This document shows, one piece after another, positions 3,628-45,254 of a DNA stretch of 64,000 bases. The notes beneath the pieces are model-generated. The model did no database searches. It was given only the letters and a program-made list of their open reading frames with translations, and was not told the origin of the DNA. Made by a program: the position numbers and the translations under genes. The DNA comes from Myxococcus landrumus. GTDB lineage: Bacteria; Myxococcota; Myxococcia; Myxococcales; Myxococcaceae. Within the stretch, counting starts at the first letter, position 1. Each line of letters opens with the position of its first letter. Location of the stretch: the NCBI RefSeq assembly GCF_017301635.1, contig NZ_CP071091.1, positions 9,230,501 to 9,294,500 of the forward strand. The letters are read 5' to 3'.

Positions 3628-4632
3628 ATGCCCAACCTTTCTCAATGGCGGGCCGCCCGAGGGCGCCAGGCTCTCTACTCCGCCCTGCGACGTTTCTTCA
3701 CCGCGGAAGGCTATCTTGAGGTGGAGACCCCGCTGCTCATCCCCACGCCGGGAATGGAGCCGCACATCACCGCCTTCGAGGCGGGCTTCATCCCGGAGAC
3801 GGGTGTCGGCACCGCCCGCCCCCTCTACCTGCACACCAGCCCCGAGTACGCCATGAAGCGGCTGCTCGCGGATGGCGCGGGCCCGTTGTTCCAGCTGTGC
3901 AAGGTGTTCCGGAACGGCGAGGTCTCACAGACGCACAATCCCGAGTTCACGATGCTGGAGTTCTACCGGCCGAACGCGGACTACCACGCCATCATGGCGG
4001 ACGTGGAAGGGGCGCTGGCGGAGGCGGGGCGCAGCGCGACGGAAGGGGAGCCCGGCGCGGATCCGGCCTTCTTCACCCGCACCCCGTACGAGCGCATCAC
4101 CGTGCGGGACGCCGTGCTGCGTGCGACGGGCGTGGACATCCGCGTGCACTCGGACGGGCCTTCGCTCAAGCGGGCCGCCGACGCCATTGGCGTGTGGACG
4201 GGCGAGTCCGTGAGCTTCGACGACGTGTTCTTCCACCTCTTCCTCGAGCGCGTGGAGCGGGGCCTGGGCCATGAGCGGCCCACGTTCCTCATCGAGTATC
4301 CCGCGTCGATGGCGGCGCTCTCGCGGCTCAAGCCGGGGGATTCGGCGGTGGCGGAGCGGGTGGAGCTGTATGCGAAGGGCCTGGAGCTGGCGAACGGGTT
4401 CTCCGAGCTGACGGACGCGGCGGAGCAACGGGCCCGATTGCTCGAGGAACAGGACCTCCGGCGCAAGCTGGGCCGTTCCGTGTATCCTCTGGACGAGCGG
4501 TTCCTCGACGCGGTAGGTCGAATGCCACCCTCGGCGGGTATCGCCGTGGGGCTCGATAGAATCCTGATGCTGCTGCTCGGGGTCCAGCGCATCGCGGACG
4601 TGCTCTTGTTCCCCGCCCACGAGTTCGTGTGA
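3628..4632 (+). CDS. epmA: EF-P--(R)-beta-lysine ligase EpmA (GenX/PoxA)
   Basis: Lysyl-tRNA-synthetase-like enzyme that, in the characterised family, attaches beta-lysine to elongation factor P. The 334 residues match the short, anticodon-domain-less GenX form (E. coli about 325 aa). Visible class II synthetase elements are motif 2 (CKVFRNGEVSQTHNPEF) and motif 3 (GIAVGLDRILMLL). The ATG at 3628 starts MPNLSQWRAARG, where family similarity begins; the frame stays open far upstream, but those codons are the antisense of the peptidase gene. Neither efp nor epmB is present here. The stop overlaps the plsC start by 4 bp (GTGA), implying coupled translation. Confidence 0.9.
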   Translation: MPNLSQWRAARGRQALYSALRRFFTAEGYLEVETPLLIPTPGMEPHITAFEAGFIPETGVGTARPLYLHTSPEYAMKRLLADGAGPLFQLCKVFRNGEVSQTHNPEFTMLEFYRPNADYHAIMADVEGALAEAGRSATEGEPGADPAFFTRTPYERITVRDAVLRATGVDIRVHSDGPSLKRAADAIGVWTGESVSFDDVFFHLFLERVERGLGHERPTFLIEYPASMAALSRLKPGDSAVAERVELYAKGLELANGFSELTDAAEQRARLLEEQDLRRKLGRSVYPLDERFLDAVGRMPPSAGIAVGLDRILMLLLGVQRIADVLLFPAHEFV

Positions 4633-29003: not shown

Positions 29004-30057
29004 CGGGCACCTTCAACCGGAGCGTGGCGTAGACCCATCCGTCCCGCTCCTCCAGGACGAACGAGTTCCGGCTGGGGAAGAGTACATCCAGCCGCTCCTG
29101 CACGTTGCGCAGGCCGATGCGCGTCGAGCGAGGGGCTCCCTCCGCCTCCGCCGCGTGCTTCAAGGCGCCGGTGTTGGCCACCTCGATGCGCAGCTCGTTG
29201 CCCTCCAGGTCGGCCCGGAGGGTGACTCGCAGCACGGAGTCGCGCCGTGAGCCGTGCTTGAGCGCGTTCTCCACCAAGGGCTGAAGCGTGAGGGCGGGGA
29301 GGTAGGCCCGAGCGGCGGCGGGTGACACCACCACCTCGACTTGCAACCTCTCCTCGAAGCGGACCTTCTCCAACGCCAGATAGTTGTGAATGCTCTCCAG
29401 CTCTTCCTCCAGCGGAATGAGCACCTGTTGCGGTCCGGTGAGTGTGTGCCGGAGCAGCTCCGCCAACTGGGTCACCATCGTCTGCGCGCGGCCCGAGTCC
29501 TCGGAGATGGTGGCGCGCAAGGAATTGAGCGCGTTGAAGAGGAAGTGAGGATTGAGCTGGTACTGCAACGCCTGGAGCCGGGCTTCGTTGGCCAGGGCGC
29601 GTGCCTCGATGTTCGCCCGCTCCTCGGCCTGTCGCTCGTGCCAGATCTTCACCGCGTAATAGGCACCGCACCACAAGGCGAAGACCCAGCCCAGGTTCTG
29701 GCCCACGCGCGGCACCATTGCCCAATCCAACGGGGTGCGATCCGGGAAGAAGGACGACGATGCCACGCGCAAGAGCAGTCCCCACGCTGTACCAAACACC
29801 CAGCACACGAGGAGGAGCAGCAGCGCCTGGCTCCACGGAGGGAGCCGGCCCGCGCGCACGCGTTGGCAGATGCGGTGCAGCCCCAGACTGAGGACGAAGC
29901 CGAGCGCCATGCGCAGGGCCTTGTAGAGGGCCATGGTCTCGCGCTGTTCCGCCGTCATCTCCACCAGCACGGGGGCATAGGTGGCGTAGGTGACCACGCC
30001 ATAGCCGAGCCAACCGGCTGTGTTCAGCTTCCAGAAGAGTCGGCGGAAGTCCGTCAT
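28969..30057 (-). CDS. LytS/YehU-type sensor histidine kinase
   Basis: A 362-residue membrane sensor kinase paired with the LytTR regulator downstream. Four hydrophobic helices lie in residues 10-135. The His-kinase domain begins with YQLNPHFLFNALNSL, where His171 is the predicted phosphorylation site. The ATPase part has LQPLVENALKHG (N box) and a degenerate G-box region, TRIGLRNVQERL. There is no separate periplasmic sensor domain, so the stimulus is probably sensed in or near the membrane. It starts at ATG 30057, 3 bp from the DJ-1-like remnant on the same strand. Confidence 0.9.
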   Translation of the reverse strand: MTDFRRLFWKLNTAGWLGYGVVTYATYAPVLVEMTAEQRETMALYKALRMALGFVLSLGLHRICQRVRAGRLPPWSQALLLLLVCWVFGTAWGLLLRVASSSFFPDRTPLDWAMVPRVGQNLGWVFALWCGAYYAVKIWHERQAEERANIEARALANEARLQALQYQLNPHFLFNALNSLRATISEDSGRAQTMVTQLAELLRHTLTGPQQVLIPLEEELESIHNYLALEKVRFEERLQVEVVVSPAAARAYLPALTLQPLVENALKHGSRRDSVLRVTLRADLEGNELRIEVANTGALKHAAEAEGAPRSTRIGLRNVQERLDVLFPSRNSFVLEERDGWVYATLRLKVPDGTTALSAAGR

Positions 30058-30177
30058 GGGTCAGGGCGAGGCGGGGCGGGCGAAGCGTGTCACGACTTGC
30101 CGGTTGAAGGCGGGAAGATCATCCGGCCAGCGGCTGGTGACGAGCATGCCATCGACGTCCTCTTCGTTCACCCATGT
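30058..30177. repeat. Direct repeat, left copy (partner 34863-34985)
   Basis: About 120 bp match 34863-34985 with six substitutions and one 3-base indel (roughly 95% identity). Both copies are in the same orientation and begin at GGGTCAGGGCGAGG. They bracket 4.7 kb holding the orphan 568-aa gene and the three secreted-protein genes. Confidence 0.85.
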
Positions 30178-30180
30178 GCG
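30061..30180 (-). pseudogene. 3' remnant of an NTF2-DJ-1 fusion gene
   Basis: The minus strand encodes TWVNEEDVDGMLVTSRW...VVTRFARPASP and a stop, nearly identical to the last ~38 codons of the intact DJ-1/PfpI fusion gene at 34866-35861 (TWVNEEVVVDGMLVTSRW...). The 3-base difference keeps the frame. Upstream of this segment, similarity stops abruptly and no start or catalytic region exists, so this is the tail of a lost copy. Confidence 0.85.
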
Positions 30181-30869
30181 CTGACACCGTGTGGGCCCCA
30201 TGTTCGACGTCGCCAGCGGTGGCGATGGCCATGAATGCCACTTTGGCATGGGTGGGTTTGGGACGCCGCCTGAACCCCTGCCTCGCGAGCAGGCTTGTTC
30301 TTGCCATGGAGGCGCTACGCGCAAGACTCCCGCGAATTGCTGCACTTCGCGAGACAGCAAGCGAGTGCGGGATTGAAGCCGTCGGGCCGATGCTCCGCGG
30401 GCGCGTTGCGTTCACGACGGGCCTTCCTCCAGGTCGCTCATCGGGTCCACTTCCGCGGCCCGGTGTGGCCCAGGCTTCCCTGCCGCGGCGGGGCTCAAAG
30501 AGCGACAGGGCCCGCCGCCGAATTCTCAAGGACCGACGAAACATTCGCCGCGACATCAGGAGAATGCAGGAAGTTCCTCGATGCGAATGTCCATCCCCCC
30601 CGGGCAGGAGCCTTCCATGTCGTGCTTCATGTCCTCGCATCCCGCGGGGGGCTTCAGTCCAGGGTGCATCACCCGCATGCGTCCAGAGGATGAAGGCCGT
30701 TTCTGAAGTTCGAGGAGGGCGTGTCGGGGCGGCATGCCTCGCACTCCCGCGCGAGCGGGCGACGCGCTTCATGACGCCCCTCTCGCTCCCACCCCAACCC
30801 CAGTGAACCGGCGGTGTCCGCGTCACTCCGTGAGGAGCAGGCGGACGCTCGCCCCAACCAGGACATCCC
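30181..30869. other. Gene-free stretch inside the repeat-bounded segment
   Basis: 689 bp with no supported gene. Open frames exist on both strands, but their peptides are Arg/Pro/Cys-rich and look like non-coding reading of GC-rich DNA. A minus-strand tail near 30556-30690 (ending RIEELPAFS) could be another gene remnant. The promoter of the gene at 30870 should lie near the right end, where GTCCGC and GCGGAC form a short inverted repeat around 30807-30845. Confidence 0.4.
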
Positions 30870-32679: not shown

Positions 32680-32691
32680 CGTCCGTGTCGC

Positions 32692-33453
32692 TTACAGCCC
32701 CGCGTCCTTGCAGAGGTCGTCCTGCAGCTCCGTCAGCGCCTTCCGCGCCCGCATGGGCACACAGGTGTTGGCCAGGAAGTAGGCCGAGGCGCCCACCGTC
32801 GCGGTCTTGAGCCTCGCGCCGAGCGCCGACCAGCACCACTCGAACCCCACCTTCCTCGCGTCACCCGCGCGGGCATCCGTCGTGGGCAGGTCCAGTGCGG
32901 CCAGCACCGCCTCCGCGAGCGCCTCGTCCTTGCAGGCACCCGCCTCCTTTCCACCCCGCACCGCCGCGGCGAAGAGCGGCATCGCGACGTAGGCGAAGTG
33001 GCCTCTCTTCACGAGCCGCGCGGCCTGGAGTGTGGTCTCCGTGCTCGCGTCCGCCGCCAGCTCCCGGTACGTGTCGATGCAGTCACTCTTCTTGCTCTCG
33101 AGGCATCGCTCCAGGTCCTTCAATCCCCGCGCATCGCGCGCGGAGGAGAAGCCGGGCGCCTTGGCGAGGAAGGCATACCGCTGCCTCAGGGCGTGCGCCT
33201 TCCGGGCGACGGCAAACGGGTCCTTGTCATCCGGAGCCGTGGCCGATTCGACCGCGGCCGTCGCGGCTTCCGTCACGAGCGTGCGCCAGGTGTCGGAGCG
33301 CGCGGCGGGAGGAAGCTCCTCCGCTCGCTCCAGCAGCTCCGCCCAGGACTTCTGCGCGGCCAGCGCCCGAAGGTCTTCGAGCGTCGCGGCCGGGCGAGCC
33401 AGCACCGGTGCCGCCAGCAGGGACGCCAGCACCATGGCCAGTCGACGCGTCAC
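32692..33453 (-). CDS. Secreted protein, third gene of the secreted cassette, unknown
   Basis: A 253-residue protein with a signal peptide (MTRRLAMVLASLLAAPVLAR). The mature part is mostly helical and Ala/Leu-rich, with repeat-like helices (WAELLERAEELPPAARSDTW) and six or so cysteines in the C-terminal half (ERCLESKKSDC, GACKDEA, WCWSALG, NTCVPM, DDLCKDAG). No family is recognised. The GTG start at 33453 overlaps the previous gene's stop by 4 bp (GTGA), so it is translationally coupled to it. It is the last gene of a three-gene operon of exported proteins. Confidence 0.75.
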   Translation of the reverse strand: MTRRLAMVLASLLAAPVLARPAATLEDLRALAAQKSWAELLERAEELPPAARSDTWRTLVTEAATAAVESATAPDDKDPFAVARKAHALRQRYAFLAKAPGFSSARDARGLKDLERCLESKKSDCIDTYRELAADASTETTLQAARLVKRGHFAYVAMPLFAAAVRGGKEAGACKDEALAEAVLAALDLPTTDARAGDARKVGFEWCWSALGARLKTATVGASAYFLANTCVPMRARKALTELQDDLCKDAGL

Positions 33454-34217
33454 TGGAGCCTCGCTTCCAGGAACGAGGGCCCTTCGGCCGCGCCCCCTTG
33501 AGTGGTGGTGAAGATGAGCGCGCCGGTCCCCCGTTCGAGCGAGAGGGCAGGCCCGAAGCGGCAGGTCAGGACCGTGACATCCTTCACGGTGGCACAGCGA
33601 GCCCGGGCCCGCGTCGCGAGTGGCGCACACGCCGCCCACACGTCCAGCTCCGCCATCACCTCGTCGTCGAAGGTCTTCCAATCGAACGTGAAGGTCGGTG
33701 ACGTGCCACACGCCTTGCGCAACGCCGCCATGGCCTCGGCGGCGCGCGCGGTGTACTTCTTCTCGAGGAAGGGCCAGGCCTTCTTCTCGAAAGCCGTGAG
33801 CCGCCCGGACTCCCGTTGCAGCAGGTGCGCGGAAATCACCTCGGCGGCAGACGCCTTGTCCGTCGCCTCCTGGTTGAACTTGACGCGGAAGGATGGCTTC
33901 CCGGGAACAAAGGCATCGACATCGCCAGCGCGCTGGGAGAGCAGCACCCAGTCCGCGCCGCGATGACGGACGACGAAGTCGATACCCCGCCCCGTGGTCC
34001 GGGCCTTGCCGCGCACCGAGAGACCGTCCTGCTCGGAGTCCGTGCCCTGAAGCCGCAGCACCACCTCCGACGCCTCGCGGGGCGCCAGCGTCACGACCTC
34101 GATGGACTGGCCGTCGGTGCCCCGATAGACCTTGATGGCCAGCGACTCCAGTGACTCCTCCGCCATGGCCGCCTGGGCGAAGAGCAGCAGGAGAAGCATC
34201 GAGATCTTCCGCGCCAT
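33450..34217 (-). CDS. Secreted protein with C-terminal four-Cys domain, second gene of cassette
   Basis: A 255-residue exported protein (signal MARKISMLLLLLFAQAAMA). Residues ~22-130 are beta-rich (IKVYRGTDGQSIEVVTL). From ~160 the sequence KACGTSPTFTFDWKTF...AACAPLA...ARCATVKDVTVLTCRFG...LSLERGTG follows the same cysteine and motif order as the whole mature protein of the preceding gene (CGT-C-C-C, then LE+GT). So it is a fusion of a unique N-terminal domain to that shared domain. I know no name for the domain. It starts at ATG 34217, 2 bp after the upstream gene's stop, and overlaps the downstream gene by 4 bp. Confidence 0.75.
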   Translation of the reverse strand: MARKISMLLLLLFAQAAMAEESLESLAIKVYRGTDGQSIEVVTLAPREASEVVLRLQGTDSEQDGLSVRGKARTTGRGIDFVVRHRGADWVLLSQRAGDVDAFVPGKPSFRVKFNQEATDKASAAEVISAHLLQRESGRLTAFEKKAWPFLEKKYTARAAEAMAALRKACGTSPTFTFDWKTFDDEVMAELDVWAACAPLATRARARCATVKDVTVLTCRFGPALSLERGTGALIFTTTQGGAAEGPSFLEARLQ

Positions 34218-34219
34218 GC

Positions 34220-34696
34220 TCAGTTCAGCGCCTTCTCGAGGATGGCCTTGGTGTTGTCCGTGATGTTCGTGTGGTCCTTGTTCATGCGGTACGTGAGGGT
34301 GCCCTTCTCGAGCGTGATGTTGCGCTGCGTCGCGCTGTTGGTGCCATCGTCCTTCTCCGCGGGCTTGACGCCCGTGAAGAGACACGACACGCCGGTCACC
34401 TTCTTCGCGATGGCCTTCTTGTAGGCGGGGCGCTCGCAGAGGGCCTCCACGCCATTGAGTGCCGCTTCACAGTACGAGCCGTTGCTGCTGCTGCCCCACT
34501 CCTCGGGCTTGAAGTTCTGGAAGTCGCTCTTGACGGTGAGCTTGGTGCCGCACTTGTCGTTGGCGGCCTTCAGCGCCGGGGCAATCGTCTGCTCGAAGGA
34601 CTCCTTGGCCTCTTCCTGCGAGGGCTTGAGGTCTTCCTCGGCGAAGGCGGACGTCGAGAGCAGGGCCACTGCGGCGAATACGAGCTTTGAGTGCAT
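34220..34696 (-). CDS. Small secreted four-Cys protein, first gene of cassette
   Basis: A 158-residue exported protein with signal peptide MHSKLVFAAVALLSTSAFA. The mature ~138 residues begin with an acidic helix (SQEEAKESFEQTIAPALKAA), followed by KCGTKLTVKSDFQNF, then SYCEAAL, EALCERP, VTGVSCLFTG and ITLEKGTLTYRM. Four cysteines in this order are shared with the C-terminal domain of the next gene's product. The ATG at 34696 has GGAG upstream (GGAGAAACATCCCGC) and leads the operon. Function is unknown; likely periplasmic or released. Confidence 0.78.
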   Translation of the reverse strand: MHSKLVFAAVALLSTSAFAEEDLKPSQEEAKESFEQTIAPALKAANDKCGTKLTVKSDFQNFKPEEWGSSSNGSYCEAALNGVEALCERPAYKKAIAKKVTGVSCLFTGVKPAEKDDGTNSATQRNITLEKGTLTYRMNKDHTNITDNTKAILEKALN

Positions 34697-34862
34697 GCGG
34701 GATGTTTCTCCAGGAATGGAAAGCAATCGCGATTTTCTGTGTATTCTGGCCCAGATGCAAGGTTGCGGGGAGTCGACCCTGGGGTGCTGGGCGAGCGATG
34801 CAGTGGCGTGACGATGCGCCTGGTGCGGACGCGTATGCCGCGACATGCGTCCGCTCTCTCAG

Positions 34863-34985
34863 GGGTCAGGGCGAGGCGGGGCGGGCGAAGCGCGTCACCA
34901 CTTGCCGGTTGAAGGCGGGAAGGTCATCCGGCCAGCGGCTGGTGACGAGCATGCCATCGACGACGACCTCCTCGTTCACCCACGT
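34863..34985. repeat. Direct repeat, right copy (partner 30058-30177)
   Basis: This copy is the 3' end of the intact NTF2-DJ-1 gene plus 3 bases beyond its stop. It matches the left copy at about 95% over ~120 bp in the same orientation. The intact gene continues beyond the repeat, so this is the parental copy and the left one the derived tail. Confidence 0.85.
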
Positions 34986-35861
34986 GGCGCCCGCATTCTG
35001 CAGGTCGAGGCGCAGGGAGGGGAAGGAGGTGACTCTGCGCCCCTTCACGCCCCCCGCGTCGGCGAGCAGCCACAGGCCGTGACAGATGGCGGCGACAGGT
35101 TTCTTCGCCTGGAGGAATCCCTGCACGAACGTGACGGCCTCGGGGACCAGGCGCAGGCTGTCCGCGCTGGGGGTGCCTCCAGGCAGGTAGAGCGCGTGAT
35201 AGGCGTCCGGGCGGGCTTCACTGAGCACGCGGTCCACGGAGAACTCGCTCGTCCGGCCTGCCTTCGTCTCCGCGCGCACGGTGCCCTCATTGGGGGCGAT
35301 GAGCTCCACGCGGGCCCCGGCCTCCTCGAGCGCGCGGCGGGTCTCCGTCATCTCGGGGAGATTGAAGCCGTGGGTGACGAGGATCGCCACGGTGCGACCG
35401 GCGAGCGGGCTGCTCTTCGCCGTCAGAGGCGCGGCGGGAGTGGCGGCGTCCGTCCGGGGTTCGCGGTGGAACACCTTGCTGACGATGGTCCACTTGCCTC
35501 CCAGCTTGAGCAGGGAGATGTAGTCGATGAAGTCGAACTTCGGCGTGCGCACGGACACCTTGGCCATCGCCGCGGTGCCGGCGACATCAAGCTGAAGGAC
35601 CTTGTCCTCGCGTCCGGTGGCGGGGTTCTTCACCACGGTCTCGATGTAGTCCGCGCTGGCCCAGGCGGTGAAAGTGCCATCGGGCTTCACGTAGAGGAGC
35701 TTCGATTCGAGATGGAAGGCGCGATGAAGGCGCGCGCTGTCGCCGGACTTCACCCCCTCCGTGTAGTCGGCGACCACCGCGCGGACGGCCTCCGCGTCGT
35801 CGGCGGGTGTGGCCGACAGCCAGATGGCGAGCAGAATCGAAGGGAGTGGGGCGAGCGTCAT
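34866..35861 (-). CDS. NTF2-like domain fused to DJ-1/PfpI domain
   Basis: A 331-residue exported fusion protein. A signal peptide (LPSILLAIWLSATPA) is followed by an NTF2/lumazine-binding-2-like domain (~20-130: VRAVVADYTEGVKSGDSARL, GGKWTIVSKVFHREP). A DJ-1/PfpI domain occupies ~150-331, with the nucleophile-elbow Cys260 in VAAICHGLW. DJ-1/PfpI members include glyoxalase III, deglycase-like and protease-like proteins; the reaction here is not known. The export signal is unusual, as most DJ-1 proteins are cytoplasmic. The last ~120 bp are duplicated at 30058-30177. Confidence 0.85.
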   Translation of the reverse strand: MTLAPLPSILLAIWLSATPADDAEAVRAVVADYTEGVKSGDSARLHRAFHLESKLLYVKPDGTFTAWASADYIETVVKNPATGREDKVLQLDVAGTAAMAKVSVRTPKFDFIDYISLLKLGGKWTIVSKVFHREPRTDAATPAAPLTAKSSPLAGRTVAILVTHGFNLPEMTETRRALEEAGARVELIAPNEGTVRAETKAGRTSEFSVDRVLSEARPDAYHALYLPGGTPSADSLRLVPEAVTFVQGFLQAKKPVAAICHGLWLLADAGGVKGRRVTSFPSLRLDLQNAGATWVNEEVVVDGMLVTSRWPDDLPAFNRQVVTRFARPASP

Positions 35862-36412: not shown

Positions 36413-37258
36413 ATGCGGACACGTGTGCTGGGAGGACGGCCGCGTCAGGAGCGCAGGCTCGTTCCCATCATCCCGCTCCTGGCTGTACTGGGCGCGCCGG
36501 TCGCGATGGCCGAGGGCGCCGCGCGGCAGGGCGCGCAGCTCTTCACCCAACGGTGCGCGACTTGTCACTCGGTGGGAGAGGGCGACCGGATTGGCCCTGA
36601 CCTGCACGGAGTGCTGGAGCGGCGTGACGAAGCCTGGGTGACCCGCTTCATCACGAGCCCGGGCGCGCTCATCGATTCGGGAGACCCGGTCGCCACCGAG
36701 CTGCTCGCGAAGTTCAACGGCGTGCGCATGCCCGACCAGTCGCTCACCGACTCCGAGCGCGCGAGCCTCTACGCCTTCTTCCGCGACTGCACCCAGAAGG
36801 GGAAGGGCGGTTGCAAGCCCTCGCCCGCGGAGAAGATGGGCACGGACGCCGCGCCCGAGGAAATCGCGCGAGGCCGCCGACTCTTCGAGGGCACCGAGTC
36901 CCTGAAGAACGGCGGCGCCGCCTGCATCGGTTGTCACGACGTGCGAGGCGCGGGCGTGGCGGGGGGTGGAACGCTGGGACCCAACCTGACCTTCGCCTTC
37001 GCGCGCATGGGGGAGAAGGGGATGCGCCCCGCCCTGGCGAAGCTGGAGGGGCCCATGATGGGTGCGCTGTACGCGAAGGCGCCGCTCGATGAGGAAGAGC
37101 AGTACGCCCTCAAGGCGTACTTCGCGGAGGCCTCTCGAGACGGCAGCCGTCCTCGCGCGGACCGGGACTTCTTCTACCTGGGCGTCGTCGGACTGGCCGC
37201 GGCGCTGGGCTTCATCGGCGTGGTGTTCGCCTCGCCGTCCTCGCGAGGCAAGTCGTGA
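36413..37258 (+). CDS. Membrane-anchored di-haem cytochrome c
   Basis: First gene of the ACIII operon. The 281 residues have an N-terminal signal/anchor helix (VPIIPLLAVLGAPVAMA) and two class I cytochrome c domains: CATCHS near residue 45, with axial Met in NGVRMPDQSL, and CIGCHD near 174, with Met in GPMMGAL or GMRP. A C-terminal membrane helix follows (YLGVVGLAAALGFIGVVFA). It would hold haem c on the periplasmic face and pass electrons between the NarI-like cytochrome b and ACIII or an oxidase. GAGGAGG precedes the ATG. The next gene overlaps by 4 bp. Confidence 0.85.
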   Translation: MRTRVLGGRPRQERRLVPIIPLLAVLGAPVAMAEGAARQGAQLFTQRCATCHSVGEGDRIGPDLHGVLERRDEAWVTRFITSPGALIDSGDPVATELLAKFNGVRMPDQSLTDSERASLYAFFRDCTQKGKGGCKPSPAEKMGTDAAPEEIARGRRLFEGTESLKNGGAACIGCHDVRGAGVAGGGTLGPNLTFAFARMGEKGMRPALAKLEGPMMGALYAKAPLDEEEQYALKAYFAEASRDGSRPRADRDFFYLGVVGLAAALGFIGVVFASPSSRGKS

Positions 37259-37881
37259 GCGACTCCATCCTGTTCAACGTGGTTCCCTATGCGGCCGCGC
37301 TCGTCACCTTGGCGGGCGGCATCGCGCGGCTGACGGCGCGAGAGCCCGCGGCGCCTCCTTCACCGTGGACGCCCGCGGGCCGCACGGTGTTGGCGGGCTC
37401 CTCCATCGTCCTGTTCCTGCACCTGGTGGGGCTCGCGGCGCCTCGCGCGATGCAGGTCTTCAACGCCTCTCCCGCGCGTCTCTTCACGCTGGAGTCGCTC
37501 AGCCTCATCGGTGCGCTCCTGCTGAGCTGGGGCCTGTTGACGCTGGGCCTTCGCCGGGCGCGTGAAGGGCAGTGGGGGGCCGTCGTCGCGCTCGCCCTCG
37601 TCCTGTCGCAAGTGCTCACCGGTGTGTACGTGGCCGTGGCCCTGCGCTGGGCCTCCGCCTGGTACCTGCATGTCACGGTGCCCTACCTGCGCTCGCTGAT
37701 GTCCTTCCAGCCGGACGCGACGCTGTTGCAGGCCGCGCCGCTCGTCATCCAGGTGCACGTGCTCGCCAGCATCGCCCTCTTGGGAGTGGCGCCCTTCCTG
37801 CGCTTCGGCCGCGTGCCCGCGCGCACGCCAGAGTCCGTCGAGCCCGGTCTGCTCGCCACGCCTCGCGAGGAGACACCATGA
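37255..37881 (+). CDS. NarI-like cytochrome b membrane subunit
   Basis: A 208-residue polytopic protein with five hydrophobic helices. It resembles the gamma (cytochrome b) subunit of respiratory nitrate reductases: FNVVPYAAALVTLAGGIAR at the start, VLFLHLVGLAAPRAM, LSQVLTGVYVAVALRW, and a last helix with APLVIQVHVLASIALL followed by PFLRFGR. Histidines in FLHLV, YLHVTV and VQVH-type positions are candidate haem b ligands. No catalytic nitrate reductase subunits are present, so it may pass quinol electrons to the fused-operon cytochrome c. GTG start; 4-bp overlaps on both sides. Confidence 0.7.
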   Translation: MSDSILFNVVPYAAALVTLAGGIARLTAREPAAPPSPWTPAGRTVLAGSSIVLFLHLVGLAAPRAMQVFNASPARLFTLESLSLIGALLLSWGLLTLGLRRAREGQWGAVVALALVLSQVLTGVYVAVALRWASAWYLHVTVPYLRSLMSFQPDATLLQAAPLVIQVHVLASIALLGVAPFLRFGRVPARTPESVEPGLLATPREETP

Positions 37882-38501
37882 GCCGCGCTTCCTTCCGTGT
37901 CCTCGGGTACGCCGGTGCCCTCGCCGCGCTGAGCCTGGGCGGGTGCAACAGCCCCGTGAACAACCAGCAGGGCCACATGCCGGCGCAGCCCGTGGCCTTC
38001 TCCCACGCGGTCCACGCGGGCCAGTACGAGCTGGATTGTCAGTACTGCCACGTGGGCGCCGAGAGCAGCCGTCACGCGGGTGTCCCCTCCACGAGCGTGT
38101 GCTTGAACTGCCACTCGCAGGTGAAGAAGGACTCGCCCGAAGTCCAGAAGGTCATCGCCGCCGTGGCCGCGAAGGCGTCCATCGAGTGGGTGCGTGTCCA
38201 CCGTCTCCCGGACCACGCCTACTTCAACCACGCGAGCCATGTCACCGCGGGCGTGGCGTGCCAGACGTGCCACGGCAAGGTGGAGGAGATGGTGCGCGTG
38301 GAGCAGGTGGAGCCCATGACCATGGGCTGGTGCCTGGACTGTCACCGCAAGACGCTGGCGCAGGAGCAGACCGCGCCGCTGCCTTCCACGCCGCGAAAGG
38401 GCGAGCTGTTGGCCCTGACGTCCGGCTCACCGTTGCCCGAGCCGTCGAAAACCCCTCGCATCTTGCGGCCGCCCTCGGACTGCTCGAGCTGCCACCGCTG
38501 A
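37878..38501 (+). CDS. actA: ACIII subunit ActA, penta-haem cytochrome c
   Basis: Periplasmic multihaem subunit of Alternative Complex III, which oxidises quinol and reduces cytochrome c or an oxidase. The 207 residues have a lipoprotein signal (SLGGC) and five CxxCH sites: CQYCH, CLNCH, CQTCH, CLDCH and CSSCH, with extra histidines (FSHAVHAG, NHASHV) as likely distal ligands. The haem count matches ActA. The ATG overlaps the preceding stop (ATGA), and ActB begins 13 bp after its stop. Confidence 0.92.
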   Translation: MSRASFRVLGYAGALAALSLGGCNSPVNNQQGHMPAQPVAFSHAVHAGQYELDCQYCHVGAESSRHAGVPSTSVCLNCHSQVKKDSPEVQKVIAAVAAKASIEWVRVHRLPDHAYFNHASHVTAGVACQTCHGKVEEMVRVEQVEPMTMGWCLDCHRKTLAQEQTAPLPSTPRKGELLALTSGSPLPEPSKTPRILRPPSDCSSCHR

Positions 38502-38514
38502 GGACCTCCGCGCC

Positions 38515-41496
38515 ATGTCCGACACCCTTCCCAAGTACTGGCAGAGCCTGGCCCAGCGAGCGACCGACGGCACGGGACTCGAGCCACGGCACAACGAGTT
38601 CGCGGAGGAGCTCCCGGTGGGCGTCGCCGCTGTCCCTCCGGATGCGAGCTCCCGCCGCGACTTCTTCAAGATGATGGGCCTGAGCGCCGCCGCGGCGATG
38701 GTCGCGTGTCAGCGCGCGCCGGTGCAGAAGCTTGTCCCCTACGTGTCCAGACCGGACGAGGTGATGCCGGGCACCGCGCTCTGGTACGCGTCCACCTGCG
38801 AGGGCTGCTCCGCGCGCTGCGGTCTGTTGTTGAAGACGCGCGACGGGCGTCCCATCAAGGTCGAGGGCAATGACGAGCACCCCGTCTCGCGCGGAGGCGT
38901 GTGCGCGGTGGGGCAGGCCTCGGTGCTCTCGCTCTACGACGCGAGCCGGGCGCGCTTCCCCACGCGCACCCACGGCCGCATCACCTGGACGGACCTGGAC
39001 GCCGAGGTGAAGGCGGGGCTGCTCAAGGCGAAGGAAGACGGCAAGGCCATCCGGCTGGTGTTGCCCTGGGTGATGGGGCCTTCGCTGGAGGCGGGCGTGA
39101 AGCGCTTCCTCGCCGCGCACCCCACGGCGCGCACGGTGCGCTACGAGCCGCTGGGCGAGCTGTCGGCCATCGGTGACGCCTACCGCATCACCCACGGCGC
39201 CCGGGTGGTGCCGGACTACCGCTTCGAGCGGACGAAGGTCATCGCCAGCTTCGGCGCGGACTTCCTGGGCACGTGGGTGTCGCCCGTGGCCTTCACGCGC
39301 CAGTACTCGGAAGCGCGAGACGCCGCCGGACGCAGGGCGATGTCGCGGCACTATCAGGTCGAGCCCGTGATGACGCTCACGGGCGCGGCGGCGGACCGCC
39401 GCTTCGTGGTGGCACCGTCCGACGTGACGCTGGCGCTCGGAGACGTGGTGCGCGGGCTCGCGGCGAAGGCTGGGCGCACCCTTCCAGGGCTGACGGCGCT
39501 GCCGGCCTCCAAGCTGGACAAGACCTCCGTGGACGAGCTCGTCGACGCGCTGTGGTCGCATCGCACCGAGTCGCTCGTGGTGTGCGGCGGCGACGACGTG
39601 GCGGGCCAGGCGCTGGCGGCGACGGCGAACCAGTTGCTCGGCAACGAAGGCACCACGGTGCTTCCGATGGACGGTGTCCGGCTGGATGAGGACGCACTGT
39701 CCTACGGCGAGCTGCTCGCCGAGCTGGGCGCGGGAAGCGTGGGCGCGGTGCTCTTCGCGGGCGTCAACCCCGCGCACGCGGACCCTCGGGGAGGGGAGCT
39801 GGGCAGCCTGTTGAAGGCCGTGCCCCTCACGGTGACGCTGAATGACCGCCTGGACGAGACGACGCTGCTGACCCGGCTGCACGCGCCGGCCTCCACGCCG
39901 CTGGAGTCGTGGGGCGACGCGGAGCCTCGCCGGGGTGTGCTCTCCCTGCGCCAGCCCGCGGTGTCTCCGCTGCACGACACGCGCGACCTGATGGACTCCC
40001 TCCTGGCATGGGCGGGCCTCTCCGCGACTCACTACGACTTCCTGCGCGCGCGCTGGGAGGCGGAGGTCTTCCCTTGCGCTGGGACGGCGGGGCAGGACTC
40101 GGGCACCGCCTGGGACGACGCGGTCCGGCGGGGCGTGGTGACGCTGCCCTCGACGCCGGTGGAGCCGCTGTCGTTCCGCGAGGAGTCACTGGCGAAGGCG
40201 CTGGCCTCGGTGTCGCGGCCTTCGGGGGAGTGGGAGCTGGTGTTGTTCTCGTCGGTGGCGATGCGCGATGGCGCGCCCGCGAACAACGCCTGGCTCCACG
40301 AGGTGCCGGACCCCATCACCAAGGCGACCTGGGGCAACCAGGCGCTCATCGCCCCCTCGCGGGCGAAGGAGCAGGGCCTGTCCGATGGCGACGTCGTGAA
40401 GGTGAGCGTGAGCGGCAAGTCGGTGTCGCTCCCGGTGCTGGTGCAGGCGGGAACCCATCCCTCCACGCTGGCCGTGGCGGTGGGCTATGGCCGCACGCGG
40501 GCCGGGCGCATCGGCGATGGCGTGGGCTCGCATGTCTTCCCGCTCGCGGCGGTGGTGGGCGGGCGCGCGTGCCGTACCGTACCGGGCGCGACGGTGGCCG
40601 GGACGGGCGAGCGTCAGAAGCTCGCGCTCACGCAGACGCACTCCAGCCTGGAAGGCCGTCCGCACGTGCGAGAGGCGGAGCTGGCCGCGTTCCTGGCGAA
40701 TCCCCGCGCGGGCAACGAGGGCCACGGCGGGCACGGCACCAACGGCGCCCATCCGCTCTCCATCTGGTCCGGCCACGAGTACAACGGCCACCGGTGGGCG
40801 CTCGCGGTGGACCTGAGCATGTGCACGGGCTGCTCGGCGTGTGTGGTGTCCTGCCAGGCGGAGAACAACATCCCCAGCGTGGGCCGCGAGGAGGTGCTGC
40901 GTCAGCGCGAGATGCACTGGATGCGCATCGACCGGTACTACCAGGGCGACGAGGCGAACCCGCAGGTGGTGCACCAGCCGATGATGTGCCAGCACTGCGA
41001 GAACGCGCCGTGCGAGACGGTGTGCCCGGTGCTCGCGACGGTGCACTCGAGCGAGGGGCTCAACCAGCAGGTCTACAACCGCTGCGTCGGGACTCGGTAC
41101 TGCGCGAACAACTGCCCGACGAAGGTGCGCCGCTTCAACTGGTTCGACTACCCGCACGACGAGCCGCTCGAGCGGATGGTGCTCAACCCGGACGTGGTGG
41201 TCCGCAGCCGGGGCGTCATGGAGAAGTGCTCCATGTGCGTGCAGCGCATCAACGAGGGCAAGGCGACGGCGAACCGCGAGGGCCGGCCGCTGAAGGACGG
41301 CGACGTCCAGACGGCCTGTCAGCAGAGCTGTCCCGCCAAGGCCATCCACTTCGGCGACCTGAATGACCCGAACAGCCGGGTGGCGAAGCTGGCGAAGGAC
41401 GGGCGCTCGTTCCGGTTGCTGGAGGAGCTGAACATCGGGCCGTCCATCACCTACCTCACGAAGATCCGGAACACCGGGTCGGGAAGCGGAACATGA
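38515..41496 (+). CDS. actB: ACIII subunit ActB, molybdopterin-oxidoreductase-like/Fe-S fusion
   Basis: The large 993-residue periplasmic subunit. A twin-arginine signal ([20 protein letters not shown]) starts near residue 44 after a cytoplasmic leader, as usual for ActB. Residues ~80-680 are the molybdopterin-oxidoreductase-like domain, which in known ACIII lacks the Mo cofactor; [11 protein letters not shown] marks its N-terminal Cys cluster. From ~768 a ferredoxin-like domain carries [39 protein letters not shown] and KCSMC/ACQQSCP, enough for three 4Fe-4S and one 3Fe-4S cluster. It contacts ActA and ActC. It overlaps actC by 4 bp. Confidence 0.93.
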
Positions 41497-42973
41497 GCAA
41501 CCAGCACCTGTCCCCGCTGCGCGTGCCGCTGGTCAGCGAGCCGCGCAGCATGGGCCAGCTCACCGAGGAGATTTGCGCCCCCATGGAGCGCGCGCCCACG
41601 TGGAAGTGGTGGGTGGCGTTCGGCATCGCGGTGGCGGTGTTGGCCACGGGCGCGGGCATCGTCGCGTACCAGGTGGGCACTGGCATCGGCGTGTGGGGCC
41701 TCAACAAGACCATCGGCTGGGCGTTCGACATCACCAACTTCGTGTTCTGGGTGGGCATCGGCCACGCGGGCACGCTCATCTCCGCCATCCTCTTCCTCTT
41801 CCGGCAGAAGTGGCGCACCAGCATCAACCGTGCGGCGGAGGCGATGACGCTGTTCGCCGTGATGTGCGCGGCGCTCTTCCCGCTCATCCACATGGGGCGG
41901 CCCTGGCTGGCCTTCTGGGTGCTGCCGTATCCCAATACGCGCGGAAGCCTCTGGGTGAACTTCCGCTCGCCGCTCCTGTGGGACGTGTTCGCCATCTCCA
42001 CGTACTTCACCGTGTCCGCGGTGTTCTGGTACGTGGGCCTGATTCCGGACCTGGCCACCGTCCGTGACAGGCTGAAGGCGGGCGTCCGCAAGGCCATCTT
42101 CAAGGTGATGTCGCTGGGGTGGACGGGCTCGAACCGGACGTGGAGCCGCTACGAGACGGTGTACCTGCTGCTCGCGGGCCTGGCGACGCCGCTGGTGCTC
42201 AGCGTGCACACCATCGTCTCCATGGACTTCGCCACGTCGGTGATTCCCGGCTGGCACACCACCATCTTCCCGCCGTACTTCGTCGCGGGCGCGGTGTTCA
42301 GCGGCTTCGCGATGGTGCTGACGTTGATGATCATCACCCGCGTGGTGCTGGGCTACGAGCACCTCATCACCCTGCGCCACCTGGAGAACATGACGAAGGT
42401 CATCATCGTCACCGGTGGACTGGTGTCGCTGGCGTACGCCACGGAGTTCTTCATCGCCTGGTACTCGGGCAACCCCTACGAGCGCTTCGCCTTCATGAAC
42501 CGCGCGTTCGGCCCGTATGCCTGGGCGTATTGGACGATGGTGACGTGCAACGTGGTGTCGCCGCACCTGTTCTGGTTCAAGAAGATTCGCACCTCGCCCG
42601 CGGCCATCTTCGTGCTGTCGCTGGTCATCAACGTGGGCATGTGGTTCGAGCGCTTCGTCATCATCGTGACGAGCCTCCACCGGGACTACCTGCCCAGCAG
42701 TTGGTCCATGTACACGCCGACGATGGTGGAGGTGGGGACCTTCATCGGCACCTTCGGTCTCTTCTTCACCCTGTTCCTGCTCTTCGTGCGAGTGCTGCCC
42801 ATCATCTCCATCGGCGAGGTGAAGAGCGTGCTGGGCTTCGCGCGAAGCACGCCGGCGCACCCCGAGACTCCGCCGTCGACGCGTCCTGCCCCCGTGCTCG
42901 ACGCGCCGGAGGAGGCCTCGGCGGCCCGGAACCACCCGCCGCTGGCCATCGCCACCCGGAAGGATGTCCCCGT

Positions 42974-42977
<4 letters not shown>
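41493..42977 (+). CDS. actC: ACIII subunit ActC, NrfD-like quinol-site membrane protein
   Basis: A 494-residue NrfD/PsrC family protein with about ten membrane helices; ActC is the proposed quinol-binding, possibly proton-conducting subunit. Segments such as [19 protein letters not shown] and [18 protein letters not shown] match the family, with acidic and histidine residues near the periplasmic side expected at the quinol pocket. The final ~50 residues are a polar Pro/Ala-rich tail. The ATG overlaps the actB stop (ATGA) and its own stop overlaps actD, continuing the tightly coupled operon. Confidence 0.92.
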
Positions 42978-43491
<514 letters not shown>

Positions 43492-43495
<4 letters not shown>

Positions 43496-44061
43496 GCAAG
43501 AGGTGGGCAGGACTGGCGGCGCTGGGGCTGGCCGTGGCGGGCTGCGAGCAGGACGAGACGAAGCCCAACTTCGAGTACGCGCCGGACATGGTGGCGTCCG
43601 TCCCCTACGACAGCTTCGCGAACAACCCGAACACGCCCGACGGCAAGACGCTCGTGACGCCGGCGAAGGGCACGGTGCCTCGGGGGCATCTGCCCCTGCA
43701 CCTGGCCTCCGGACCGGAGGCGGCCGAGCGCGCCGGAGCGGACCTGCGCAATCCATATCCGTCCTCGCCCGACGTGCTCGCGCGTGGGCAGACGGCGTTC
43801 CTGCGCTACTGCTCGCCGTGCCATGGCTCGGGGGGACTGGGAGACGGGCCGGTGACGGCGCGCTTCCCGATGCCGCCGTCGCTGCTCGCGGAGCACGCGG
43901 TGGGGCTGCCCGATGGGCGCATCTTCCACATCATCACCCATGGGCAGGGGCTGATGCCGGCCCATGGGTCGCAAGTGGCGCCGGAGGACCGGTGGAAGCT
44001 GGTCCACTACGTGCGCTCGCTCCAGAACCCCGCGCGCACCGCGCACAAGGAGACGCCATGA
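43492..44061 (+). CDS. actE: ACIII subunit ActE, mono-haem cytochrome c lipoprotein
   Basis: A 189-residue lipoprotein (lipobox V-A-G-C) with one class I haem site, CSPCHGSGG near residue 103, and a candidate axial Met in QGLMPAHGSQV. The N-terminal half holds the YDSFANNPNTPDGKTL segment typical of the ACIII cytochrome, with a mature lipid anchor at the periplasmic face. It is the probable exit point for electrons towards cytochrome c or the oxidase. GTG start, overlapping actD and actF. Confidence 0.9.
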
Positions 44062-45254
44062 GCGCCCCGGTCCACGCCTCCGCGAATGAGTCGCGCGGCG
44101 GCTTCGCTGTCTCGCCCGTCTTCCATCGCGCCGCGCAGGTGGCGGCGGGCGCGGGGTTGGGGGTGCTGGTCCTGGGGCTGGTACAGGCCCCGGAGCGCGC
44201 GCTGACGAGCCTGCTCACCAGCGGCTTCTACTTCCTGTGCCTCGGGTTGGGCGGGGCGGTGTTCCTCGCGTTGATGTACGTGGCGAACGCGGGCTGGTTC
44301 ACTGTCTTCAAGCGCATCCCGGAGGCGTTCACCGCCTATGTGCCTTGGGGCGCGGTGACGATGCTGGCGCTCCTGCCCTTCATGGCGACGCTCTACCCGT
44401 GGGCGAAGCCGGGCGTCATGGAGACGGACCACCTGCTGCACCAGAAGGAGGCGTTCCTCAACGTCCCGTTCTTCGCCATCCGCATGGTCGTCATGCTGGC
44501 GCTGTGGGTGGCCTTCACGTGGGTGTTGCGGCGCAACTCGCTCCGGCAGGACGTGGAGCAGGGCGAGGTGCTCACGCGGCGCAACGTGAAGGTGTCCGCG
44601 GTGTTCCTGGTGCTCTTCTCGCTGACCTTCTGCCTGGCCGCGTTCGACTGGCTGATGAGCCTGGAGCCGCACTGGTTCAGCACCATCTATGCGCTCTACA
44701 ACGTGGCGGGGCTGCTCAGCTCCAGCGTGTGTGCCATCACCGTGGTGGCGGTGCTGCTCCACCGGGCGGGGGCCCTGCCGCAGCTCAACAGCAGCCATCT
44801 CCATGACCTGGGCAAGCTGATGTTCGGCTTCGCCACGCTGTGGGCCTACCTCTGGTTCTCGCAGTTCATGCTCATCTGGTACGCGAACATCCCCGAGGAG
44901 ACGGTGTACTTCATCGCGCGCATGCACGGCGGCTGGGAGGTTCCGTTCTACGCGAACGTGGCGCTGAACTGGGCGCTGCCGTTCGTGCTGCTGCTGCCTC
45001 GCCCGGCGAAGATGAACCCGTCGCACCTCTTGCGAGTGGCGGCGGTGCTGCTCGTGGGGCGCTGGTTGGATTTGTACCTGATGGTGGCTCCGGCGCATCA
45101 GCCGGAGGGCTTGAGTGTTGGCGTGTACGAGCTGGCGGGCTTCCTGGGCCTGGGCGCGCTGTTCACGCTGGCGGTGACCCGGGCCGTGCGCACCACGCCG
45201 CTGCTTCCGGTGGGGGACCCGTACCTGGTGGAGAGCCTGCATCACCACACCTGA
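44058..45254 (+). CDS. actF: ACIII subunit ActF, second NrfD-like membrane protein
   Basis: The 398-residue last subunit, paralogous in fold to ActC, with about ten helices. Recognisable pieces are WFTVFKRIPEAFTAYVPWG, SLTFCLAAFDWLMSLEPHWF, YLWFSQFMLIWYANIPEET and HQPEGLSVGVYELAGFLG, standard for ActF/DUF-type quinol:cytochrome c oxidoreductase membrane subunits. It ends the operon; a strong hairpin terminator lies ~90 bp downstream. No cytochrome c oxidase (aa3) genes follow, unlike in many ACIII loci; the cbb3 genes are 8 kb further on. Confidence 0.92.
   Translation: MSAPVHASANESRGGFAVSPVFHRAAQVAAGAGLGVLVLGLVQAPERALTSLLTSGFYFLCLGLGGAVFLALMYVANAGWFTVFKRIPEAFTAYVPWGAVTMLALLPFMATLYPWAKPGVMETDHLLHQKEAFLNVPFFAIRMVVMLALWVAFTWVLRRNSLRQDVEQGEVLTRRNVKVSAVFLVLFSLTFCLAAFDWLMSLEPHWFSTIYALYNVAGLLSSSVCAITVVAVLLHRAGALPQLNSSHLHDLGKLMFGFATLWAYLWFSQFMLIWYANIPEETVYFIARMHGGWEVPFYANVALNWALPFVLLLPRPAKMNPSHLLRVAAVLLVGRWLDLYLMVAPAHQPEGLSVGVYELAGFLGLGALFTLAVTRAVRTTPLLPVGDPYLVESLHHHT

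Follow-up and report, generated by a model that had tools for sequence, protein, structure and literature searches.

Genes of the cassette

The stretch of DNA analysed here (64,000 nucleotides, referred to as the window) belongs to a host genome assembled as a single 10.37-Mb contig, and carries three adjoining genes, designated A, B and C, that are read in this order from the reverse strand (Table 1). Genes A and B are separated by 2 bp (34218-34219) and genes B and C share 4 bp (33450-33453), as an earlier sequence-only reading of this DNA had described. That reading also assigned a signal peptide to each product, and closer analysis bears this out: all three N-termini are of the Sec/SPI type with an AxA ending (TSAFA/EED in A, QAAMA/EES in B and APVLA/RPA in C), the AxA alanines of A are at least 90% conserved in the orthologue alignment, and A19 is nearly invariant in C. 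The signal peptide of A corresponds approximately to residues 1-19, where the pLDDT of the structural model is below 50; the remainder of the protein lies at approximately 84-98. None of the three signal peptides contains a lipobox cysteine. Apart from the signal peptide, A and C show no similarity to each other, and no promoter or terminator consensus was found at the cassette.

Table 1. Position and character of the features discussed in the text
Feature	Position	Strand	Description
Gene A	34220..34696	-	158 aa, one domain, Sec signal; C49, C76, C87, C105
Gene B	33450..34217	-	255 aa, two domains, Sec signal
Gene C	32692..33453	-	253 aa, GTG start, Sec signal, probably helical, six invariant Cys
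Four-Cys domain of A	34226..34624	-	residues 25-157; AlphaFold2 model and four invariant Cys
N-terminal eight-stranded beta-barrel of B	33876..34145	-	residues 25-114; AlphaFold2 model
C-terminal four-Cys domain of B	33456..33773	-	residues 149-254; C170, C197, C208, C219
Transferable unit	32682..34737	-	homology between unrelated sites, from C stop codon to short leader before A
Direct repeat arm 1	34859..34990		3' end of DJ-1/PfpI-like gene
Direct repeat arm 2	30054..30181		truncated copy of DJ-1/PfpI-like gene end

Two other features of the window were noted. P0004 (30870-32576, forward strand) is convergent with gene C and encodes a Gly/Ala-rich protein of 568 aa with an amphipathic N-terminus and no known family; it lies beside A-B-C only in the host and in G113 (L054 10740-12389). 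On the other side, the gene order at 36506-45254 (forward strand) recalls a respiratory operon for alternative complex III, with multihaem cytochromes, an Fe-S protein and an NrfD-like protein, judging from translations only.

A four-cysteine domain shared by A and B

Compared as single sequences by BLASTP, A and the C-terminal part of B are weakly similar (E 0.011, 25% over 73 aa). The comparison of the A family with the B family by hhalign gives a probability of 93.9% and an E value of 1.6e-7, and a profile of A picks up B orthologues in other genomes at E values of 1e-5 to 1e-4. AlphaFold2 models built from alignments of relatives from public genomes are confident for both A (m69be82ea0e26; pLDDT 87.5, pTM 0.80) and B (pLDDT 88.9, pTM 0.64) and give the two regions the same topology. 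The order is H-E-H-H-(H)-E-E-E-H in residues 25-157 of A (H25-49, E55-57, H64-67, H72-86, H90-99, E102-106, E127-130, E133-137, H145-157) and H-E-H-H-E-E-E-H in residues 149-254 of B (H149-170, E175-178, H185-190, H193-206, E216-221, E226-230, E233-238, H242-254). The significant family alignment, the recovery of B orthologues by the A profile and the matching model topology place the similarity beyond chance; A and the C-terminal part of B have one genuine four-Cys domain in common.

The conserved core of this domain consists of C1-G, C2, C3 and C4, and the four cysteines are invariant across an alignment of 29 A orthologues and paralogues. In the broad family alignment only M1, C49 and C87 are invariant, with G50, C76, K93, C105 and G132 nearly so. 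We therefore define the family as C1-G...C2...C3...C4 on H-E-H-H-E-E-E-H, a description that fits both A and B. The sequence-only reading had listed a longer order of shared motifs ending in LE+GT. Its four-Cys core is common to A and B in profiles and models alike, but LE+GT, which falls in the last hairpin of the domain, is variable in B orthologues and is not a signature. A broad profile, A6, has three matches in the host genome; among the matches listed are A and a kinase-linked paralogue of B described below (B'), and the third is probably B.

All four cysteines are kept in approximately 102 of 105 distinct aligned domains, and in L183 the fourth is present on inspection. Six divergent copies lack two cysteines each, and the missing pair is always C2 and C4 (A and B of L146, the B-like protein of L194, the second domain of L200 and the first domain of L198) or C1 and C3 (L147); the losses in L194, L198 and L200 were read from alignments and are less certain. 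Were the lost pairs random, the chance that six of them would fit one pairing would be approximately 0.004 (3 x (1/3)^6), with the qualification that the L146 pair comes from one cassette and is not fully independent. Because the cysteines are lost in pairs in these copies, disulfides C1-C3 and C2-C4 are predicted, which would correspond to C49-C87 and C76-C105 in A and to C170-C208 and C197-C219 in B. The proteins at L198 (5209-6147) and L200 (5110-6255) each contain two tandem domains of the four-Cys type, one copy per protein being without C2 and C4.

Extent of the family

Of 195 Myxococcota genomes, 85 contain a match to the A6 profile; they come almost entirely from the host's own family plus families f11, f17, f27 and f28. 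Narrower patterns were used in a scan of 84,980 species, in which Myxococcota alone gave matches. The domain occurs as A, as a longer solo A, in tandem copies (L198, L200), in B and in B'. Searches of Pfam, NCBIfam, PHROGs and PADLOC with A, B, C and P0004, of Pfam with 15 diverse family members and of the PDB with sequence profiles gave only chance-level matches, and nothing was found in the literature on this family. This agrees with the earlier view that the domain has no named family; by these searches the four-Cys family is undescribed, and it is wider than the two proteins in which it was first noted. What had been described as a domain duplicated and fused within the operon has, however, an older history. 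The B' paralogues form a separate, near-universal lineage, and because A-only and B-type forms stand side by side across Myxococcota, their distribution dates the split as ancient; it did not arise in the A-B-C cassette. These results define, across Myxococcota, a family of exported domains that had not been catalogued and for which a disulfide pattern is predicted.

Kinase-linked paralogues of B

The host genome encodes a full-length relative of B, designated B' (G000:C1:8580619-8581341), which is 28% identical to B and near-universal in the host's family. A Ser/Thr kinase gene adjoins B' in all of the approximately 37 B' loci examined (families f1 and f8), and lies immediately upstream in the same direction except at L147, where the two genes are convergent. 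Behind its kinase domain, which matches PF00069 at E 2.5e-43, the kinase of the host genome has a single hydrophobic segment and then a short C-terminal domain. Loci L086-L092, L118-L137 and L147-L156 combine kinase and B' with a further exported protein, B''. The host copy of this STPK-B'-B'' operon, in which B' and B'' are without known family, lies at L086 7727-11501 (approximately G000:C1 8579726-8583500). In many genomes, including low-GC ones of other families, B' and B'' are fused; no kinase was found beside the fusions of G159 and G188 on the fragments read. By sequence, B is a cousin of B'.

No kinase lies next to the A-B-C cassette at any cassette examined. A solo A is directly beside a kinase at two loci only (L079 and L085), a number that chance could nearly give, and we judged these two immediate cases too weak to be used as evidence of linkage. 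Myxobacteria have many uncharacterised Ser/Thr kinases, and the STPK-B'-B'' arrangement provides extracytoplasmic candidate partners for one of them. The arrangement resembles the Hanks-type transmembrane Ser/Thr kinases that have extracytoplasmic domains (PASTA-type logic) in that such a kinase leads the operon (PF00069 E ~1e-43). It differs from them in that no PASTA domain was found and that the extracytoplasmic parts are encoded as individual exported proteins; A-B-C is without a kinase. Exported partners related to membrane kinase accessory proteins do not form a wholly new category of system, although the domain family is new.

Mobility of the cassette and its insertion site

Alignments of cassettes from different sites span approximately 32682-32696 to 34697-34737 and usually end no more than approximately 40 bp upstream of the A start (34801 at most), and the flanks consist of at least nine unrelated gene sets that depend on the lineage. 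Comparison of these sites identifies A-B-C as a self-contained, sporadic and horizontally mobile unit of approximately 2 kb. Since part of the leader before A is conserved, a promoter may move together with the cassette. A three-gene exported unit can thus move between sites with nothing else attached.

In G112 the same flanking genes occur without A-B-C, with approximately 1.6 kb of other DNA in between. The two direct repeat arms (92% over 132 bp) enclose P0004 together with A-B-C in the window; no flanking repeats were found at other cassettes. The end of the DJ-1/PfpI-like gene is also partly duplicated in G112 (L185 4249-4345 and 5648-5931), around different cargo, which suggests that this gene end may be an exchangeable site. 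No relatives were found in viral contigs, phages or plasmids.

Between the M. stipitatus-like and M. xanthus-like groups (presumptive names, based in part on the named loci L093-L098), B and C have a dS of 0.13-0.18, compared with 0.42-0.68 for the vertically inherited kinase operon. Since this divergence is too low for vertical descent, dS identifies B and C as recently exchanged between Myxococcus groups; the dS of A, 0.48, fits either vertical descent or an older exchange. The dN/dS of A-B-C between close relatives is 0.25-0.48, compared with 0.11-0.24 for the adjoining respiratory and two-component genes and 0.32-0.37 for the DJ-1-like gene; on these ratios the cassette is under selection, yet fast-evolving. 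A decayed copy of A was seen in G111 (L055 2264-5614), where the A beside B-C is broken (matches at 3875-4264 and 3795-3938, in different frames) and an intact A lies nearby in the opposite orientation.

Co-occurrence of A, B and C

Whether the three genes stay together in other genomes had been left by the sequence-only reading as a matter to be checked, and they do. Among 145 genomes of the order, 26 have a close A orthologue; these 26 and no others have C, and 25 of them have B. The pattern extends to unlinked genes: in G053, G094 and G049 they are partly on separate contigs, with all three still present. Under independence, and ignoring phylogeny, such co-occurrence has a probability of approximately 1e-27 to 1e-29. 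Linkage recurs in distant families: A comes directly after C in f17 (L192, L193), and the order C-B-A-A, with a B-like protein, occurs in f28 (L194). C itself belongs to a wider Myxococcota family, some members of which stand alone at unrelated loci (for instance behind an ABC transporter operon of the maltose type), and so is not exclusive to the cassette. The shared set of genomes, together with the C-A and C-B-A-A neighbourhoods in distant families, supports a functional link among A, B and C.

The proposal that A, B and C are unrelated exported proteins, co-transcribed by chance and without a common function, is in conflict with their identical phyletic pattern, the order kept over many sites and the C-A linkage in distant families, and we regard it as highly improbable.

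Proposed function

We tentatively favour the view that A-B-C is a mobile operon whose exported products form a binding or sensing complex without catalytic activity, akin to the B'-B'' pair of the kinase operon; this is possible, though short of an even chance. The three products would be exported as disulfide-stabilised envelope proteins and would act jointly as an extracytoplasmic binding complex. In it the four-Cys domain of A and B would dock the proteins to one another, the beta-barrel of B would bind the ligand and the putatively helical C would provide a scaffold. Since the broad family conserves no polar residues other than one lysine and the cysteines, the complex is presumably non-catalytic. 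A-B-C would be related, as an accessory version, to the B'-B'' pair found with a transmembrane Hanks-type Ser/Thr kinase in the same genomes, and it would most likely sense an envelope or extracellular ligand or present it, perhaps to such a kinase; any connection of A-B-C itself with a kinase is inferred.

Comparison of the models with known structures brings in other possible roles. Foldseek searches of the PDB with the A and B models gave nothing at E <=0.001. With VIA-align, the barrel of B (residues 19-116) has PliC, MliC and PhiA of Brucella, Salmonella and Pseudomonas as its top five rows (Z 6.6-7.3), the best PliC/MliC superposition reaching Z 7.3 and 3.0 A over 84 residues, which is below the level that separates relatives. 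As predatory myxobacteria secrete lytic enzymes, the cassette could serve in envelope protection, the barrel of B blocking a lysozyme or another glycan hydrolase, the cell's own or a competitor's, while A and C stabilise it in the periplasm. We consider this unlikely. Avidins score alike (the barrel matches PliC/MliC and avidins at Z 5-7.3) and are ranked first by Foldseek; the PF09864 (MliC) profile, run against the host genome with E values up to 1 allowed, has no match there, and a Pfam search of B likewise shows no MliC, so that the profiles do not place B in this family. B does resemble the MliC/PliC c-type lysozyme inhibitors in having a small exported beta-barrel in its model, but it differs from them in its additional four-Cys domain and two operon partners. 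The modelled barrel is eight-stranded and antiparallel, as in the bacterial avidins and factor H-binding-protein-type barrels, but the sequence of B is unrelated to theirs, with E >0.01 and TM ~0.45 of target.

For A, the nearest structures are the N-lobes of zincins, led by residues 551-693 of anthrax lethal factor (Z 6.2, 3.6 A, 115 residues) and including Wss1 (Z 5.2), PPEP-3 and ERAP1; the four-Cys domain of B matches an M61 peptidase at Z 6.2. The helix-sheet arrangement is similar and the last helix of A superposes on the zincin active-site helix, and the domain could be what is left of a zinc metallopeptidase N-lobe, with binding of peptides or proteases retained. HExxH is, however, absent from every aligned A and B sequence, there is no histidine in the last helix of A and no second lobe, and HECT C-lobes match as well, making such an origin quite improbable. 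All of the fold matches lie below Z 8 and may reflect common arrangements.

The sporadic distribution of A-B-C, its exchange between species and its exchangeable locus would also suit a module for antagonism or kin discrimination, in which one protein acts as effector and a second one neutralises it. Mobile cassettes for exported toxins are known in myxobacteria: the SitBAI outer-membrane-exchange toxins are, like A-B-C, compact, mobile three-gene cassettes with exported proteins and overlapping genes (PMC5562445). SitA, however, is a lipoprotein of the outer membrane whose C-terminus is a variable nuclease (PMC5562445), whereas A, B and C have SPI signals without a lipobox, were assigned by Pfam, NCBIfam and PADLOC to no family of toxins or immunity proteins, and are conserved rather than polymorphic. 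All three are exported, leaving no obvious cytoplasmic immunity protein, and a competitive role is rather improbable.

An extension of the favoured binding or sensing complex is that freely transferred extracytoplasmic parts act as a mobile accessory signalling complex that re-tunes or decoys a resident and near-universal STPK-B'-B'' receptor. This is doubtful, but if true, ligand recognition would travel horizontally apart from the kinase. With one 2-kb cassette or one kinase operon to delete, the question of function is directly testable. Beside the kinase operon of the host genome, L086 2735-5661 encodes three tandem VWA/copine-like proteins, with a metal P-type ATPase adjacent.
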